A DNA stretch of 10,960 bases from NCBI GenBank assembly GCA_003649565.1, contig QMSF01000013.1, forward strand, positions 1 through 10,960. The letters run 5' to 3'. Every line of letters begins with the position of its first letter. Position 1 is the stretch's first letter. This DNA is from Thermoprotei archaeon (GTDB lineage Archaea > Thermoproteota > Methanomethylicia > Nezhaarchaeales > WYZ-LMO8). Of this stretch, positions 1 to 10,772 are shown piece after piece. Made by a program: the position numbers and the translations under genes. The notes under the pieces are model-generated. The model was not told the DNA's origin. It searched no databases and worked only from the letters and a program-made list of their open reading frames with translations.

Positions 1-1108
1 CCTCAAGGAACCTTATCTTCGCCTCCGTTATTTCGATCTGTGCGGGCAGGAGCTGCTCCGCCAGCGCCCTCTGCTGCTCCTCATACCGGGATTGGAGGAC
101 CTGAAGCTGGTTCGCCACCCCTTCCGACTGGACCTTGTACGCCTCCGCCACCGCCCCGGACTCGCCCATCTTCGCCGAGAGTTCGTCCAACGAAGCGGAC
201 TCCTCCATGAGGATGGATGCCGCTGCGGCCGCCCGGGTGCCGAACACCTGCGTGAGGATGGACTGTCGCTCCAGCGGGTCCACGTTCGCCAGCGTGGCCT
301 GAAGGTTCTGCATCGTGGCCGTGAGGTTCAGCGTGCCGTCAGCGTTCTGGACCAGCGCGTCCTTCACTATGAGGAGCGGGCCCTCCGTGGCGGAGGCTGC
401 CGCCGCCAGTTTAGACAGCATCATCCGGAAGCCCGTCCCGGCCATACTGGCGTCCAAACCTCTCTGGCGCAGGAGGCCGATGGCGGCAGAAGTCGTCTCA
501 AGCGGTACCCCCAAGTTCGCAGCGGCAGAGGCCGCGTACTGAAGGGAAATGGCGAGTTCGGGGAGGGTTGTTTTGAACGATTTCACCGTATTCATCAAGA
601 TGTCGTTCACCCGGTTCGTCTCATCCGCTGACATCTCCCAAGAGTCCAACGCAGCGGTCACCAAGTTCGCGGTCGTGGCGAAATCCGCCCCGGTGGCTAT
701 GGAGAGCTTCATTATCCCCGGGGTCAATTTCATTATCTCGTTGGCGGATTTTCCGGCAGAGGCCAGTATGTAATAGCCCTCAGCGACTTGCTGGGCGGAT
801 ACTGGCATGTCCCGGCCCATTTGTTCTGCCGATTCCCGGAGCTGCTTTATCTCCTCCTCCGAGCCTTGAACGATGGAGACCACGTTGGCCATCGCCTGGT
901 CGAACCCGGCGAGGGCCGCTATGCTCCCGGAGGCGAAGGAGTTCACCTGGTCCGCCGCCATCATCGCTCCCCGGGCGAGGTTGGCCATGGCCTGCTGGGT
1001 ATCGCTGACCCTCGCTGCCACGTTCTCCATCTTGTCCGGGACCGCCTCTATCAGGTCGGCCCCGACCTCGTCGTACGAGATGATGATCTTAACCTTCGGG
1101 TCTGGCAC
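1..1108 (-). CDS. Phage tail tape measure protein, N-terminal part (cut by window edge)
   Basis: I translated this frame by hand from a GTG at 1108; it stays open for 369 codons and runs off the left edge. The start is supported by a GGAGG about 9 nt upstream and by overlap with the end of the chaperone frame (stop at 1089-1091), the usual junction in tail operons. The protein begins MPDPKVKIIISYDEVG. After an Ala-rich helical stretch it shows the TP901-type tape measure core: a segment around GFDQAMANVVSIV, then EQMGRDMPVSAQQVAEGYY, ASAGKSANEIM, a run with ETTSAAIGLLRQRGLD, and AGTGFRMMLSKLAAAAS. A Gln/Glu-rich helical region (QSRYEEQQRALAEQLLP) leads to the edge. In the family this protein sets tail length inside the tube and is ejected with the DNA. 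Its full length, and any lysozyme or peptidase domain, lie outside the window. Confidence 0.93.
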   Translation of the reverse strand, partial: MPDPKVKIIISYDEVGADLIEAVPDKMENVAARVSDTQQAMANLARGAMMAADQVNSFASGSIAALAGFDQAMANVVSIVQGSEEEIKQLRESAEQMGRDMPVSAQQVAEGYYILASAGKSANEIMKLTPGIMKLSIATGADFATTANLVTAALDSWEMSADETNRVNDILMNTVKSFKTTLPELAISLQYAASAAANLGVPLETTSAAIGLLRQRGLDASMAGTGFRMMLSKLAAAASATEGPLLIVKDALVQNADGTLNLTATMQNLQATLANVDPLERQSILTQVFGTRAAAAASILMEESASLDELSAKMGESGAVAEAYKVQSEGVANQLQVLQSRYEEQQRALAEQLLPAQIEITEAKIRFLE

Positions 1109-1334
1109 GCCTCTTTGCCTCCATGTACTTCTCCTTCAGTTCCTCGTACTTCCCCGGGGGCACCTCTCTCGTTCTTTCCGCCGCTTCCGCCTGCATCCTC
1201 ACGACCGCCTGGAACGCCGCACGGTCCAGTTCCACCCGCTCCCAGGGGGCGAGCGGCCCGCACCCGTACAGCTCCCACAGCTCACTCGGCGTCTTTCCGT
1301 ACCGCTCCGCCAGCGTCCCCAGCTCCAGAACCAC
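1089..1334 (-). CDS. Tail assembly chaperone, downstream (T) frame, probably made as a frameshift fusion
   Basis: This frame encodes 81 residues from a GTG at 1334, and it is open further upstream to 1364, just after a TGA. It overlaps the end of the preceding ORF in the +1 frame and itself overlaps the tape measure start by 20 nt. The sequence LAERYGKTPSELWELYG, followed by a charged helix ending KYMEAKRRARPEG, fits the second domain of gpG/gpGT-type tail chaperones, which lie directly before the tape measure gene and coat it during tail assembly. I favour expression as a fusion with the upstream frame by +1 slippage at TTT-C (1350-1353), giving about 236 residues. A weak GGAG about 6 nt before the GTG leaves independent initiation possible. 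Confidence 0.75.
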   Translation of the reverse strand: MVLELGTLAERYGKTPSELWELYGCGPLAPWERVELDRAAFQAVVRMQAEAAERTREVPPGKYEELKEKYMEAKRRARPEG

Positions 1335-1800
1335 CGGGTTCTCCGCCGAGAAATTTTCGACCCATCACCTCCCTCTGGAGGATGGTGGCGGCGGCGTACA
1401 GCGCTGCCCTGTCCTCCTCGATAAGCTCGTCCCAGTAGAGTACTTTCGGGTCCCTCTCCTCCCCGGGGCCCGGGGGTCTGCGCACCCGGGGCCTCACGGT
1501 GATGGAGGTTCCCATGATCTCCTCTATCTTCTCTATGTTCGCCAACACGGTCTTCTCATCCACGCCCAGGGCCTCCCAGGAGGCGTTGTCCGGTAGTGCC
1601 TCCTTCCCCCGGAGCCGGGAGAGGTCCACGCCGAGCAGGTCGTAGAGCTCCATGTACGCCCACAGCGGTGGAGGCCTCACCTCCACGTTCCCGCACGACA
1701 GGCGCACGTAGAGCCGCTCACGCTCCGCCGTCATCTTCCTGTACTCCTCCGGGGTGATCGTTTCCTCCTCCCCCGGGGTCTTCTTCAGTATGCCGTCCAC
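1282..1800 (-). CDS. Tail assembly chaperone, upstream (G) frame
   Basis: A 172-residue ORF starts at GTG 1800 behind a GGGGGTG stretch, 13 nt after the stop of the tail tube-like gene. It lies between the tube genes and the tape measure, the conserved position of gpG-type chaperones. Residues 1-150 look like a folded, mixed-charge protein (PPPLWAYMELYDLLGVDL; WDELIEEDRAALYAAATILQ). The last 22 residues after KF are Gly/Ala-rich (GGEPGGSGAGDAGG) and look like incidental translation of the overlapping frame. That fits a design in which most ribosomes end here and a fraction shift into the T frame. I do not recognise the protein from sequence alone; the call rests mainly on synteny and on the overlapping-frame architecture. 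Confidence 0.7.
   Translation of the reverse strand: MDGILKKTPGEEETITPEEYRKMTAERERLYVRLSCGNVEVRPPPLWAYMELYDLLGVDLSRLRGKEALPDNASWEALGVDEKTVLANIEKIEEIMGTSITVRPRVRRPPGPGEERDPKVLYWDELIEEDRAALYAAATILQREVMGRKFLGGEPGGSGAGDAGGAVRKDAE
1350..1357 (-). other. Candidate +1 translational frameshift site (CGA AAA TTT C)
   Basis: In the zero frame the codons read GGT CGA AAA TTT CTC. The TTT (1353-1351) is followed by C, so the tRNA-Phe that decodes TTT could re-pair with TTC one base downstream. It would then continue TCG GCG GAG AAC into the T frame. The +1 frame opens only at 1364, after a TGA, and the zero frame stops at 1282, so a shift must fall inside this window of about 80 nt. A run of AAAA just before could also favour slippage, but no canonical -1 heptamer in the required frame is present. 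Known tail chaperone shifts are mostly -1, with +1 and -2 exceptions. The site is inferred from sequence only. Confidence 0.5.
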
Positions 1801-1813
1801 CCTATCACACCCC

Positions 1814-2461
1814 CTACGTGGCGGACACGGACGTGGACTTACCTATGGCGTCCACATCGTAGCCGGTGAGGTCATCGTACTTCAGTGAGAGCTTGGAAGC
1901 GTCTATCTTCACGTTCGAGACCTCGTAGGCGGCCCCGCCGGAGGACTTCGTCTTCACCGTCACCGTGAACTCCGGGAGAGCCCCGGAGTTCAGCTTCCCC
2001 GTGGCCATTCGCATCGCCCGGGAGTCTATGTAGAGGTAGTGGAACTTCAAGGATATCTCTATCGGGCCCTCCTTGATGTCGTAGGGCTCCCTCTGGCCGC
2101 CGACATGCGCGACCTTCAGGTTGTTCTTCTGCTCAAGGTCCACGCCCTGCCAGCAGCCGACGGTCTCCTTGCTCTTGTACGTGACATCGTACTGATGCCC
2201 GGCGGTCGCCGAGATGATGGTTATCTTTCCCTCGCTGCCGTCCACGGTGTAAGCGCTGCCGTCGTTCGCCATCGCGCTTCCGTTGTCATACACCGTGATG
2301 TCGCTCGGGTCGTCCGTGACGTTCCCCGAGGCGTCCACGATGGGCCAGTGCGATGTGTAGTACACCACGTTCGACCCCCCGGCGGAGGATTCCGTGAGTA
2401 TCTCCCTTGTCTGGTCACCCTCCACCAGGAGGACGCCTTCCCATCCTGCATACGTTGCCAT
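1814..2461 (-). CDS. Tail tube-like protein 2, with an inserted extra domain
   Basis: This encodes 215 residues starting MATYAGWEG at 2461, with GGGGTGA about 6 nt upstream. It is a paralog of the neighbouring 141-residue protein. Both share the N-terminus M(A/S)TYAGWEG, a middle block (KNNLK...GGQR(E/D)P..IKEG..EIS) and a C-terminal block (SKLSLKYDDLT against YKLSLKHDDIT). Between the N-terminus and the middle block it carries about 78 extra residues (roughly 22-100), rich in Ser, Gly, Asp and Tyr (DITVYDNGSAM, AYTVDGSEGKITI, QYDVTYKSK). These look like a beta-rich, probably surface-exposed domain. The position just before the chaperone pair and tape measure is that of the major tail tube gene. 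I infer a tube role from this synteny and the beta-rich composition, not from a recognised family motif. Confidence 0.7.
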   Translation of the reverse strand: MATYAGWEGVLLVEGDQTREILTESSAGGSNVVYYTSHWPIVDASGNVTDDPSDITVYDNGSAMANDGSAYTVDGSEGKITIISATAGHQYDVTYKSKETVGCWQGVDLEQKNNLKVAHVGGQREPYDIKEGPIEISLKFHYLYIDSRAMRMATGKLNSGALPEFTVTVKTKSSGGAAYEVSNVKIDASKLSLKYDDLTGYDVDAIGKSTSVSAT

Positions 2462-2482: not shown

Positions 2483-2908
2483 TCACGGCACCGTCCCGAC
2501 GGTGATGGACTTGGCGATGAAGTCCGCCTCTTCCCTGGTGATGTCGTCGTGCTTCAGCGAGAGCTTGTAGCTGTCGAACTTCCCGACCACGTAGTACTCC
2601 GTGTTCCCGGAGCTGTAGCCCTCCGGGTAGATGCCGATGTAGTACTCCGTGAGGGCCCCGGTGGACCCCACACCGGCCTTATCGGAGAGTGTGGTCTTGT
2701 CGCGCCATTTCCTTGCGATCTTCGCTGATATCTCAAGAAGCCCCTCCTTTATCTCCTCCGGGTCCCGCTGGCCCCCGGTGAAGATGCGCTTGAGGTTGTT
2801 CTTCACGTCGGCGTCCAGGGATTCCCAGGATATCGCCGAGGACGACCTCATGGCGGAGAGGCTCGTTCCTATCTTCACTTCGCCTTCCCATCCTGCGTAT
2901 GTGCTCAT
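2483..2908 (-). CDS. Tail tube-like protein 1
   Basis: This encodes 141 residues starting MSTYAGWEG at 2908 behind an AAGGAGGTGA ribosome binding site. Its ATG overlaps the stop of the preceding small gene by 4 nt (ATGA), so translation is probably coupled. It is beta-rich (EYYIGIYPEGYSSGNTEYYV; GKFDSYKLSLKHDDI) and carries the same blocks as the next gene, without that gene's extra domain. At 141 residues it is close to the size of a minimal tail tube subunit. One of the pair is probably the main tube protein and the other a variant tube, tail-end or decorated tube subunit. Which is which cannot be told from sequence. Confidence 0.7.
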   Translation of the reverse strand: MSTYAGWEGEVKIGTSLSAMRSSSAISWESLDADVKNNLKRIFTGGQRDPEEIKEGLLEISAKIARKWRDKTTLSDKAGVGSTGALTEYYIGIYPEGYSSGNTEYYVVGKFDSYKLSLKHDDITREEADFIAKSITVGTVP

Positions 2909-4415: not shown

Positions 4416-4753
4416 CGGCCCACCTCCACGTATTCCTGCGCCCGGGCCTGTATGGCCTGCGGGAGAAGCGGTTCAGCGGCCGCCGCAGCTCGTTCGATGT
4501 ACCCGGCGGACTTGCCCCGGTATTCCACGTAAGGGGCATAATAGACGTGGGGCCCGACCATCACTACCTTCTCGCTCTCGGTCGGGTAGATGGAGGACTT
4601 CAGCGCCCCGGTCCTGTACGGAGCGGTCCTCTTCATCACCAGTTCCACCACCCGGGCCGCCTCCTCCATGAGCTCCTGCGGGAGCTGCTGCAGCCTCCGG
4701 GCTAACTCCTCCCAGTTCCCCGTGAACTCCGACAGGTCAATCGAGATATTCAT
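4412..4753 (-). CDS. HK97 gp10-like head-tail completion protein
   Basis: This encodes 113 residues from ATG 4753, with GAGGAG upstream, overlapping the end of the connector gene by 17 nt. The segment KRTAPYRTGALKSSI followed by VVMVGPHVYYAPYVEYRGK is the typical HK97 gp10-family signature (A-P-x-x-T-G-x-L-x-x-S-I, then a strand ending in YAPYVE). The family helps close the head-tail joint after DNA packaging. Its length agrees with the family's usual 110-150 residues. A C-terminal helix (PLLPQAIQARAQEYVEV) completes the pattern. Confidence 0.85.
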   Translation of the reverse strand: MNISIDLSEFTGNWEELARRLQQLPQELMEEAARVVELVMKRTAPYRTGALKSSIYPTESEKVVMVGPHVYYAPYVEYRGKSAGYIERAAAAAEPLLPQAIQARAQEYVEVGR

Positions 4754-7434: not shown

Positions 7435-8481
7435 ATCCTTTTCCTCCTCGTCGTAGTTGCCCACGCCCAGTGCCTTCGCATGTCGCACAAGGTGCGCCTT
7501 CGCCTTCGCCTTCAGACTCTCCGGTAACTTGGATTGCGGCAGCCTTGCGAGGGCATTCCGCAGATGCGGGATGTCCACGGTGTCATGCTCGTTCCCGTTC
7601 TTCACGTTCGCGTTGTGATGCGGGAAGTGCCGCAGGCTCCGGGGGACCGTCTTCCCCTCTTCGTCCTTCTTGCCCCCGGGCTCTATCACAGCGAACGCGG
7701 CGTCCGGGAGGTCGTTGATGAACTTCGTGGACCACACCGCATCCTCTTCGTTGTCTCCCGTATGCTCACCTCCTTCAGCATCATAGCCACAGCCCACCGC
7801 CAGCCCCGGGGGTGCATCACCTTCAGATATCGCTGGCGGGCATGACGGTGCCTGTTTCACCATTCGGGCCAGATGCACGAGCGTGATGTTGCGTTGAATG
7901 CCTACGTAATCGACCCCCTTGTACTCCCCGGGGGTCAGTTCCACGTCGGCGACGTATCCGATGGATACGCCCTTGATGTTGAGCAGGTCCGGGCGCTCCT
8001 TCGGGATGGCGTCTATCCCCACCAGGCGATACCGGCCGTCCTCTCCCTCCTCCCCTCTTATCCCGAACACGAACCCGGAGACCTCCTCATCCTTCGGATG
8101 TACCCGTATCCCACCCTCATCCACCCCGGGGTGATCGTTCACTGAGGGGATGATGTGGTCCGCCTGGCGCTGGGCTGTTCTTTCCAGCTCCTCCCGGGGC
8201 TTGTAGAACCCGTTCAGGTTCACCCCTTCCACGGTGAGGACCACCCGACGGTACCAGAAGTTTTTATCCTCTCCCAGAAGGGTCGGGCTCGCATCCTCCT
8301 GTTCCTCGCAGTAGAGGACGGTGCGCCCGGCGACCGCATCTCCCATGATTGCTTGCTGGAACGCTTTCACCACCGCCACGTCCAGCTTCTCGTACTTCTT
8401 CTTCAGCTCCTCCAGGAGCCTCTTGAACCTGTCCCGGAGCTCCTCCGGGACCGATGCCATGACGGATAGGATGTTCACCAT
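6982..8481 (-). CDS. Prohead protease (DUF2213-like) fused to coiled-coil scaffold
   Basis: The start is ATG 8481, overlapping the portal stop as TGATG, with GGAGGTGA upstream; a GTG at 8484 would add one residue. Residues about 75-210 form the protease: FWYRRVVLTVEGVNLNGFY, NDHP (His117), GVSIGYVADV (Ser173), and QRNITLVHLARM (His203). The order HP...S-x-GY...Q-x-x-I-x-x-x-HLA matches the DUF2213 relatives of HK97-type proteases; in such enzymes His and Ser are catalytic. Residues about 249-339 hold a separate module (STKFINDLPDAAFAVIEPGG, PRSLRHFPHH, IPHLRNALARL, KAHLVRHAKALG). Residues 350-420 are coiled coil, the likely scaffold, ending in an acidic tail. The enzyme should digest the scaffold and trim head proteins after procapsid assembly. 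At 499 residues it is long for a protease because it carries its scaffold and the extra module. Confidence 0.87.
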   Translation of the reverse strand: MVNILSVMASVPEELRDRFKRLLEELKKKYEKLDVAVVKAFQQAIMGDAVAGRTVLYCEEQEDASPTLLGEDKNFWYRRVVLTVEGVNLNGFYKPREELERTAQRQADHIIPSVNDHPGVDEGGIRVHPKDEEVSGFVFGIRGEEGEDGRYRLVGIDAIPKERPDLLNIKGVSIGYVADVELTPGEYKGVDYVGIQRNITLVHLARMVKQAPSCPPAISEGDAPPGLAVGCGYDAEGGEHTGDNEEDAVWSTKFINDLPDAAFAVIEPGGKKDEEGKTVPRSLRHFPHHNANVKNGNEHDTVDIPHLRNALARLPQSKLPESLKAKAKAHLVRHAKALGVGNYDEEEKDMGDDKTKELEKKLKELQDTVEARDKEVSDLKEKLEAKTKEYDELKEKHDRIEKELKALKDQIREELVRQLKDSYPGEEEGSCIFSDEEIEKMSDCEIIRLLKAKTGADFKPQPVFMVQEQGGEDKAGKPDDKEDARWTVGVPGVAGWKEE

Positions 8482-10772
8482 CACTGCTCACCTCCCCACG
8501 CTATCGGCTTTCCGCCCACCTCCTCCGGTCTGAGCGTCCTTCCCATCTCACGCTCCACCGCCAGCTCGGGGACGCAGGTGCAGCGGCAGTTCCATTCGGA
8601 GAGGAGCTCCTTTATCATGTCCCCGGGGTACACGTTCCCCTCTCTTGCCCGATGCTCCGGGCGCACCCGCTCATCACCCATGGTGATGTAGACCCAGCGG
8701 TCCCGGGCGGCGGCCCTCCCCGATTCCACCCGGGCGGCGTTCAATGCGCTGTGACATACCTTGTGGACGATCTTGTAGGTCTCGTCCGTCCACATCTTCG
8801 CACCCTTCTTTATCCGGGCCGTGATGTCCGGGTACCCTTCACCCTTGAGCAGCCCTTCCCGCATGGCCGCCACCATCTTGGACGTGACATCCTTCCCGGT
8901 CTGGGCGGTGAGCGTGTCCACGTGTGCGGCGAGATATTCCTCCGCCCACGGCATCCCGATATCGAACTCCCCGGGGAGCCCGAGGAGCTGTTGGGTGGTG
9001 TTGTAGCCCACCTTCAGGCTCTCCTCTATCATCTCTTGGTAGGCGCTCCTTATCTTCCCGTCGGGGAACCTTATCTTCAGCGCCTTGGAGACTATCTCGG
9101 CGACGTTGTACTCGGCGTCCCCTTCCGAGAGTGCGTCCATCTGCATCCCCGCTTCCCGGGCGATGTCCTCGAACTTCGCCAGCCAGCGGATGACTGCGTA
9201 GTTCACCGCCTCCCGGAGGTTCTCCTCCGCATCGGGCTCCACACGGTCATACGGGAGCTTCCACTTCTCCCGGAGCCTTGCGAGGACGTCTGGCGGTATC
9301 TTCAGCTTGTCCAGCCGGTTCACTATGCTCATTTCTTCCCGGCCCCCGGGGACCTCTTCAGCCCCGGGGACTGTCGGGGGTATCGTGAGGTTCTGCGCTG
9401 CTTCCGGCGGCAGTTCCATGACCCCCTCCGCCGGGACCTTCAGCGCTATGATGCGTCCGTCGGGCGTGTTCTTCACCATGTAGAGCTCGCCCTCGTGATA
9501 CAGCTCTTTCCATCCCAAGTTCACCAAGTTCGTTATCGCAGTTGAGAGGTCAAGGAAAGAGCGTGTAATCCTCATGCGTATCTGGGCCCTCTCCTCCTCC
9601 GTCGGCTCATCCAGTGCGCCCCATTTTATCTCCAGCTTCCCGGGGGGCAGTATTCCCCAGCGCTGCGCCCTCTTCAGAAGGTCCACGATGTGCCTGGTCA
9701 GCTCACGCCTCATATCGCTCACGAGTGCGTGGTACTCCTTGATGTTCCACTCGCTCCCGGTGACCTTCCCCGCCTCCGTCCCCATGAGGATGGTCTTCGG
9801 CACCCGGGAGACGAGGGACAGGCGGTGGAACTGATGCTCTGTGTAAGGCTGCGGGTTCACTCCCTTGTCCATGCTGATGACGTCCGCCTCCCACCCTTGC
9901 TCGCTGATGAACTCCGTGAGGAAATCTATGTTCTTGAAGTTCTCCGTCGCCCAGTTCCAGTCGTCCTCCGTGGCGTTCTCCGGGAGCTTCAGATGTGCGA
10001 GGCCCACGGCCGACTTTATCAGGGCCTCCGTGATGGCCACGTTGGAGTTCTCAAAATCGCTGATTGTGTCGTACTGCGGGAGGAAGTGTGAGACGCCCTT
10101 CGGGTCGTCCGAGAGCCACCAGTTCTGCACGAGCACCACGCGGTCCGCATGGACGGAGTACTGCGATGCCCCGCTCTGGATGCGCCACATCTCTATCTCG
10201 CCATCTTCGCCCCGGGTGTAGTCCAGGATCTGCGTCTTTGAGATGCTGGTGAGATGCTTCAGCTCCTCCGGGAACGCCCAGCCGTCCTTCGTCCTCTTCG
10301 CCCGGAGCCTCTTCAGCGACCCCGGGGCCACTGGTTCGGCGAGGTCCCCCGGGAGCGGGATGAAGAGGAGCCCGCAGCCATACGCCTTGGAATAGACGTA
10401 GACGCGGGAGAGCCGTTCCTGGACGTCCCACACCTTCAGAAGTTCGTTCGCTTGCTCCGCCAAGTCCGCGTTCGGCGACTCCACCCAGAAGCCGCCGCGC
10501 CAGGGGTCCTGCTTGAATATGCGGAGCTGTCCCGCCCCCATCTCTGAACGCGTGGCCATCCACTCAAAATCATCGTCCGTCAAGCGTGCCTTCCGGACGC
10601 TCCGGGGCCCCTCGGTCGCCCTCCGGGAGGGTAACGTGTCCTTCTCCTGAATACTGTCCTGAGAAGTGGAACGCACAACAGGGGGGTGTCCCCTTCCCTT
10701 GGCCGCGTGGCCAGGAGTGATGGCATCCATGAGTCGTTTGAGCAGGCGGCGGGAAGGGGACGGAGGACTCAT
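8481..10772 (-). CDS. Portal protein fused to Mu F/SPP1 gp7-like minor head protein
   Basis: One uninterrupted 763-residue ORF. Residues about 60-430 resemble DUF1073-type portals: DFEWMATRSEMGAGQLRIF, VYVYSKAYGCGLLFIPL, HADRVVLVQNWW, VPKTILMGTEAGKVTGSEWN, and the long helix EYHALVSDMRRELTRHIVDL. Residues 440-485 are a Pro/Glu-rich linker. Residues about 485-763 are a minor head protein whose C-terminus shows the Mu F signature: HSALNAARVESGRAAARDRW, then GDERVRPEHRAREGNVYPGD, then EWNCRCTCVPEL. The portal dodecamer forms the DNA channel and the packaging motor seat; Mu F-like proteins sit inside the head and help assembly or DNA ejection. In most phages these are two adjacent genes; here they are one polypeptide. 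There is no Shine-Dalgarno before ATG 10772 (CCCC precedes it); a TATA-like box about 27 nt upstream suggests a leaderless message. Confidence 0.88.
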   Translation of the reverse strand: MSPPSPSRRLLKRLMDAITPGHAAKGRGHPPVVRSTSQDSIQEKDTLPSRRATEGPRSVRKARLTDDDFEWMATRSEMGAGQLRIFKQDPWRGGFWVESPNADLAEQANELLKVWDVQERLSRVYVYSKAYGCGLLFIPLPGDLAEPVAPGSLKRLRAKRTKDGWAFPEELKHLTSISKTQILDYTRGEDGEIEMWRIQSGASQYSVHADRVVLVQNWWLSDDPKGVSHFLPQYDTISDFENSNVAITEALIKSAVGLAHLKLPENATEDDWNWATENFKNIDFLTEFISEQGWEADVISMDKGVNPQPYTEHQFHRLSLVSRVPKTILMGTEAGKVTGSEWNIKEYHALVSDMRRELTRHIVDLLKRAQRWGILPPGKLEIKWGALDEPTEEERAQIRMRITRSFLDLSTAITNLVNLGWKELYHEGELYMVKNTPDGRIIALKVPAEGVMELPPEAAQNLTIPPTVPGAEEVPGGREEMSIVNRLDKLKIPPDVLARLREKWKLPYDRVEPDAEENLREAVNYAVIRWLAKFEDIAREAGMQMDALSEGDAEYNVAEIVSKALKIRFPDGKIRSAYQEMIEESLKVGYNTTQQLLGLPGEFDIGMPWAEEYLAAHVDTLTAQTGKDVTSKMVAAMREGLLKGEGYPDITARIKKGAKMWTDETYKIVHKVCHSALNAARVESGRAAARDRWVYITMGDERVRPEHRAREGNVYPGDMIKELLSEWNCRCTCVPELAVEREMGRTLRPEEVGGKPIAWGGEQ

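Follow-up and report, generated by a model that had tools for sequence, protein, structure and literature searches.

Two open reading frames overlap immediately ahead of the tape measure gene in the 10,960-nucleotide stretch of DNA analysed here (the window), and they raise the question of whether the second is translated as a separate protein or is joined to the first by a programmed shift of reading frame and, if the latter, in which direction and at which codon the ribosome moves. The first-pass annotation had proposed a pair of tail chaperone frames joined by +1 slippage. Judged from sequence, +1 slippage at AAA_TTT_CTC very probably yields a 236-residue chaperone fusion of the upstream frame (G) and the downstream frame (T) (Table 1).

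Table 1. Features of the chaperone locus and its neighbours, in window coordinates.
Feature	Position	Strand	Remarks
Tape measure, N-terminal part	2-1108	-	PF10145; runs off the window
T, second frame	1364-1089	-	+1 to G, open from 1364
G, zero-frame tail assembly chaperone	1800-1282	-	GTG 1800 to TGA 1284-1282, 172 aa
Zero-frame Gly/Ala-rich tail	1282-1349	-	read by unshifted ribosomes only; overlaps T
Candidate separate T start, GGAG and GTG	1332-1344	-	GGAG 1344-1341, GTG 1334-1332; 4-nt Shine-Dalgarno (SD) match, 6-nt spacing
Proposed +1 slip site, AAA_TTT_C(TC)	1356-1350	-	tRNA-Phe TTT to TTC
Possible stimulator, GGAGGTGAT	1364-1372	-	9-nt perfect anti-SD complement; stimulation proposed from sequence
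Tail-tube-like protein 2	1814-2461	-	weak PF18906/PF09393 matches, below cut-off
Tail-tube-like protein 1	2483-2908	-	PF18906 E 0.002, below curated cut-off; phrog_290

Gene order, host and identity of the two frames

On its minus strand the window carries part of a head-and-tail module, in which a fusion of portal and Mu F-like domain is followed by protease/scaffold, decoration protein, capsid protein, connectors, two tube-like proteins, G, T and tape measure. The capsid protein matches Linocin_M18, and T and the start of the tape measure share 20 nt. The portal (PF06381) and the Mu F-like minor head domain (PF04233) are encoded at 8481-10772 by a single gene of 763 aa. Both tube-like proteins begin TYAGWEG after their first two residues and have KLSLKxDD in common near the C-terminus, and they are perhaps the products of a duplicated tube gene. 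On both strands of the window CCCCGGG occurs 64 times, against 6.9 expected and a largest count of 15 in 200 shuffles, and CCCGGG occurs 56 times against 11.6 expected; these form a highly iterated palindrome centred on CCCCGGGG.

The host of the virus is probably archaeal. In named genomes, relatives of the major capsid protein are found in a Ca. Mnemosynella MAG (Archaeoglobi, 42%), in a Nitrosotalea MAG and in two MAGs with bacterial labels (Acholeplasma and Atribacteria), and the decoration protein matches the Ca. Mnemosynella MAG at 66%. Similarity of the tape measure extends to haloviruses as well as to bacterial phages.

That G and T form a tail chaperone pair, as had been claimed for them at the outset, is supported by their context; in a tailed virus they would together correspond to the tail assembly chaperone G/GT of lambda. 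Gene order carries most of the weight, with G and T lying between the tube-like genes, whose tube matches are weak, and a PF10145 tape measure, and the fold matches of a weak model point the same way. AlphaFold gave a weak model of the fusion, with a mean pLDDT of 57 and values under 50 over most of T; when this model was searched against a viral fold library, the best match was a tail assembly chaperone (E 7e-4, low TM-scores), and named tail assembly chaperones made up four of the five best and nine of the best 22 viral matches. The same weak model found nothing significant among PDB folds, where the HK97 chaperone 2ob9 appeared at E 6.5, and Pfam, PHROG and PDB sequence searches with G and T gave no convincing match.

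The slip site and other routes into the second frame

T lies in the +1 and not the -1 frame relative to G, as first annotated, and the window therefore does not have the arrangement of -1 chaperones with an X_XXY_YYZ heptamer. The overlap is bounded by the TGA at 1367-1365 that precedes T and by the zero-frame stop at 1282. Within it, the slip codon TTT (1353-1351) is followed by C on the minus strand, so that the AAA TTT C of the earlier proposal stands exactly at 1350-1356. Reading TTTC as one Phe gives a fusion that includes GRKFSAENPVV, and its length, first put at about 236 residues, was recomputed as 236.

The window contains a single AAATTTC, counting both strands, against 0.32 expected. 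In the 13 other window genes (3264 codons) TTT accounts for 5 of 72 Phe codons, AAA for 19 of 202 Lys codons and CGA for 9 of 187 Arg codons; an in-frame TTT followed by C is found twice, and AAATTTC never. For the 27 codons that the zero frame has in the overlap, simple multiplication gives an expectation of about 0.017 TTT_C sites. A +1 slip elsewhere in the overlap, chiefly at CCC_G (1338-1335), has a precedent in the CCC that is given as a +1 codon in Listeria phages (PMC5009743). However, in-frame CCC followed by G is common (32 of the 3264 codons in the other genes), so that a CCC_G in the overlap is unsurprising, and it is TTT_C that recurs in other families; we regard slippage away from TTT as highly improbable.

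Three homologs of G were found in searches of 5.8 billion proteins: P0003 (98%), P0004 (49%) and P0006 (52%). RKF is invariant in these and in window G, and the next residue is Arg in P0004 and Leu in the other three sequences. Since Leu and Arg can both be encoded as CNN, TTT_C can be kept in all four sequences; conservation of the slip site among homologs, on which the first-pass annotation would have rested its case, is thus compatible with the proteins and is not proved by them. The zero frame stops 22, 22 and 15 residues after RKF in P0003, P0004 and P0006, respectively, which supports a genuine split between G and T. An assembly or sequencing indel that broke one gene in two, the usual risk for a contig, can therefore be dismissed almost entirely, as P0004 and P0006 share these stops when only about half identical to G.

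The Gly/Ala-rich zero-frame tail, first taken for an incidental end, is not free to drift, as GEPGGxGxG is identical in all four sequences. This invariance could be imposed by a conserved +1 ENPVVLE or by a kept start of the form GGAG...GTG. Between window G and P0003 there are two differences among the 22 tail residues and one among the 150 residues before the tail (Fisher p 0.043), and one of the two tail changes can be silent in T. When the tails were given a best-case test of compatibility with the +1 frame, 42 of 2000 random sequences were as good as the tail of P0004, which beat the other 1958; this result was weaker when its own differing residues were permuted (421 of 2000 as good), and the test was uninformative for P0003 and P0006, where 1082 and 346 of 2000 random sequences, respectively, were as good. 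The only match of T in the protein search was its own 81-aa copy, P0005.

DNA encoding G homologs was not found in viral contigs by G, profile A1, fragment profile A4 or a degenerate pattern (whose seven matches there were due to chance), in genome contigs by profile A1, in phage records, or by profile A2 in the phylum (392 genomes) and the class (59 genomes) to which the Mnemosynella genome belongs. At five weak A2 places (E 0.0085-0.076) tblastn found no window gene. The window tape measure had no match in viral contigs.

A different route to the T product would be initiation at GTG 1334, the first ATG, GTG or TTG of the T frame, giving a separate protein with no frameshift. The GGAG 6 nt upstream of this codon is consistent with such a start, the 81-aa frame is listed as a protein in the database (P0005), and the conservation of GEPGG could reflect the keeping of both GGAG and GTG. 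Codon preference passes from the zero frame to the +1 frame around 1362-1353, upstream of GTG 1334, which speaks for slippage; across the five codons from the slip codon to this GTG the +1 frame is favoured by only 1.35 nats, which leaves room for a start there. A separate start, however, would give no reason for the invariant RKF, for the unique 9-nt SD-like element or for so rare a sequence as AAA TTT C, and T has no comparable start at several of the loci described below. We consider separate initiation unlikely.

TTT_C in other families of tail chaperones

A search with the window tape measure matched 27 of 392 genomes of the Mnemosynella phylum and led to a provirus (L075) in which G ends CAG TCC TTT CGG ACA GAG TAA and T lies in +1, with no ATG, GTG or TTG before its last third. 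The same holds for L104 (TCC_TTT_CTC_GGC), the T of which is 70% identical to that of L075, and in L105 and the identical viral contig L123 (AAC_TTT_CGC) T contains none of these codons anywhere. Viral contigs L121 and L122 share one junction (ACC_TTT_CGC) and have a possible T start 58 nt after it, and L120, found at E 0.0036, has TCC_TTT_CGC with possible T starts at 1324 and 1351, upstream of its TTT at 1506. T is thus in +1 with TTT_C at all seven inspected loci of this family of proviruses and viral contigs, which represent five distinct junctions. A further genome search matched 5 of 232 genomes; L119 (E 0.003, two stops) falls outside the seven. Since L120 and L121/L122 have possible starts, which would suit separate initiation, the lack of an early T start holds for L075, L104 and L105/L123 only, and at these loci it counts against separate initiation as the general route to T. 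We note that this family has the arrangement of the window, with L104 sharing its TTT_CTC_GGC exactly, but has no detected similarity to it in G or T (hhalign probability 0.2%).

A third set of chaperones is found in haloviruses of the HF1 group (HF2, HRTV-5, Serpecor1 and others; Haloferacalesvirus) and in HSTV-2. As in the window, the two chaperone frames overlap and stand after the tube and before the tape measure, T is in +1 and the junction contains TTT_C; the HSTV-2 junction reads AAG TCC TTT CGC. We sampled 10 of the 53 records that match the HSTV-2 chaperone, nine from Hafunaviridae (four genera) together with Hardygib1, and TTT_CGC or TTT_CGT with T in +1 was present in all ten, preceded by TCC, AAG or GAA. 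Possible T starts occur upstream of the junction or beyond it. In contrast to the window, where the next codon is CTC, these viruses have an Arg codon after TTT (CGC or CGT, 10 of 10 records), their SD-like element is weaker, and no similarity to the window in G or T was detected.

Both the frame offset and the motif have been discussed for these haloviruses. A TTT-CGC motif within a conserved 15-bp stretch of the chaperones of the HF1 group was described in 2020, and +1 slippage was suggested there by reference to influenza A virus and amalgaviruses (PMC7230728, in its available part). The HSTV-2 chaperone is listed as +1 in the available parts of PMC5009743 and PMC8211752. At UUU_CGN of influenza A PA-X and of plant amalgaviruses, tRNA-Phe is described as slipping from UUU to UUC (PMC5052127, likewise in part). 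The forward slip of tRNA-Phe proposed for the window is the same, but those are eukaryotic RNA viruses with unrelated proteins and with CGN as the next codon. In the strict sense the window has no UUU_CGN, its next codon being CTC; L104 also has CTC, and P0004 has Arg at that place. We found no other report of an archaeal UUU_C site in the literature searched, which was covered in part, and the available portions of PMC8651126 and PMC6471424 contain nothing on the site.

The first-pass annotation had remarked that +1 examples are few and that an archaeal host would make this a rare archaeal recoding site. Of 2718 positive phage cases in the available part of the PRFect study, 350 are forward shifts (PMC10885494). 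As +1 slippage in archaeal chaperones had also been put forward already, for the HF1 group and earlier for HSTV-2, the assumption of rarity has to be toned down. With TTT_C recurring in other archaeal viruses, the window offers a credible further instance of what had been suggested for haloviruses.

The T frame at all of these loci could equally be entered by a -2 shift, and five halovirus records with the same offset (L107, L111-L114) indeed carry the note 'putative programmed translational -2 frameshift'. After such a shift, however, tRNA-Phe would face AAT in the window and CCT, AGT, AAT or ACT elsewhere, with at most the third position kept. The codon before TTT is moreover variable (AAA, TCC, AAG, GAA, AAC or ACC) whereas TTT_C is constant. 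A +1 shift is to be preferred because TTT to TTC keeps tRNA-Phe fully paired at every site, and on this comparison the '-2' of several database records can clearly be weighed against +1; we judge a -2 shift to be exceedingly improbable.

TTT_C is therefore found at the junction in three families of chaperones among which no similarity was detected: that of the window, that of L075, L104 and L120, and that of the HF1/HSTV-2 group. Pairwise tests among the three found no similarity, with few sequences to compare, and the families may have a remote common origin. Whether tailed viruses of archaea use TTT_C generally as a signal for +1 recoding, one that does not need CGN and was perhaps reached independently, we consider finely balanced. 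If this is true, the same TTT_C motif would serve both archaeal DNA viruses and eukaryotic RNA viruses. The function of the window chaperone is ordinary for tailed viruses, and its slip motif is one already suggested for haloviruses. As far as we have searched, four points are new: another family of chaperones, CTC as the codon that follows TTT in the window and in L104, the strength of the internal SD match, and a comparison in which +1 is favoured over -2. With the window, the few archaeal +1 sites proposed so far are joined by one in a chaperone of another family, and TTT_C without a CGN codon recurs.

Possible stimulation, and comparison with -1 chaperones

Under the proposed +1 mechanism most ribosomes would make G alone, ending at 1282, and in a minority that pause at AAA_TTT_CTC the peptidyl-tRNA-Phe would slip from TTT to TTC and translation would continue in +1. 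By analogy with lambda gpG and gpGT, the ratio of G to G-T would serve the assembly of the tail on the tape measure. The slippage itself, its efficiency and its stimulation by GGAGGTGAT are what we infer here. CTC is the commonest Leu codon of the window genes (137 of 289), so that hunger of the A site could hardly be the trigger in the window, and GGAGGTGAT, which ends 10 nt before TTT, may do this work. It is the only 9-nt perfect anti-SD match on the minus strand, and an upstream duplex as strong as that of the slip site is found at 0.6% of the other codons of G. The spacing of 14 nt from GGAGG to TTT was counted against a stimulator of +1 slippage; stimulators of -1 shifts have a more similar spacing, whereas that in prfB is short. 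RNA structure downstream of the slip site was not unusual (z 0.13 and 0.07), and we rejected it as a stimulator on these values.

When 13 TTT_C sites were compared, several of them from close relatives, in eight the upstream region was matched by fewer than 10% of other codons. The figures for the remaining five were 27% (L123), 36% (HF2), 61% (HRTV-25), 67% (HRTV-27) and 99.6% (L120). With five of the 13 lacking a strong upstream match, these figures do not establish that TTT_C sites in general have an SD-like element. The window site, where the next codon is common and the internal SD match strong, makes the trigger of archaeal +1 slippage testable with reporters.

Both lambda G/GT and the -1 chaperones of archaeal viruses (HVTV-1, HCTV-1/2/5) also give two products in a set ratio ahead of the tape measure (PMC5009743, in part), but they do so by a -1 shift at a heptamer, unlike the window. 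The relatives of the window capsid resemble them: of 20 loci, ten were hand-picked, the other ten having no frame of tape-measure size or no clear pair, and in all ten T is in -1 and the overlap holds a canonical heptamer, which is A_AAA_AAC in eight and T_TTT_TTC in two. Several of the ten are close kin, and one (L011) is labelled Acholeplasma. As all ten are -1, the +1 chaperone of the window goes with a different tail module from that of its capsid relatives.

In surveys of chaperone pairs, ten of 33 loci had -1 with a heptamer (six being the same proviruses as in the capsid set), one was clearly +1 (L075), and 22 were ambiguous or had no pair; a survey of 12 loci gave one -1 with a heptamer (L097, from the same genome as L067). 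In the latter survey L100 and L008 were flagged as combinations of +1 and TTTC and were not accepted, being doubtful. L008 (ChaoS9) has TTT_CCA at 4523, shortly before ChaoS9_090 ends; the +1 and -1 frames are both open there, and either may be T.

The two T_TTT_TTC sites lie in a Ca. Mnemosynella MAG provirus (L010, 16467-16575) and in the Acholeplasma-labelled MAG (L011, 10039-10201), both with T in -1 and the heptamer in the overlap, so that +1 and -1 slip sites at Phe codons both occur in viruses with related capsids. In L010 a GGAGGAG stands just upstream of the heptamer. In six proviruses (L041, L043-L046 and L049) G ends with A_AAA_AAC and T is in -1; the first T start is a GTG that overlaps the stop of G (GTGA); either -1 slippage or stop-start coupling would account for this arrangement.
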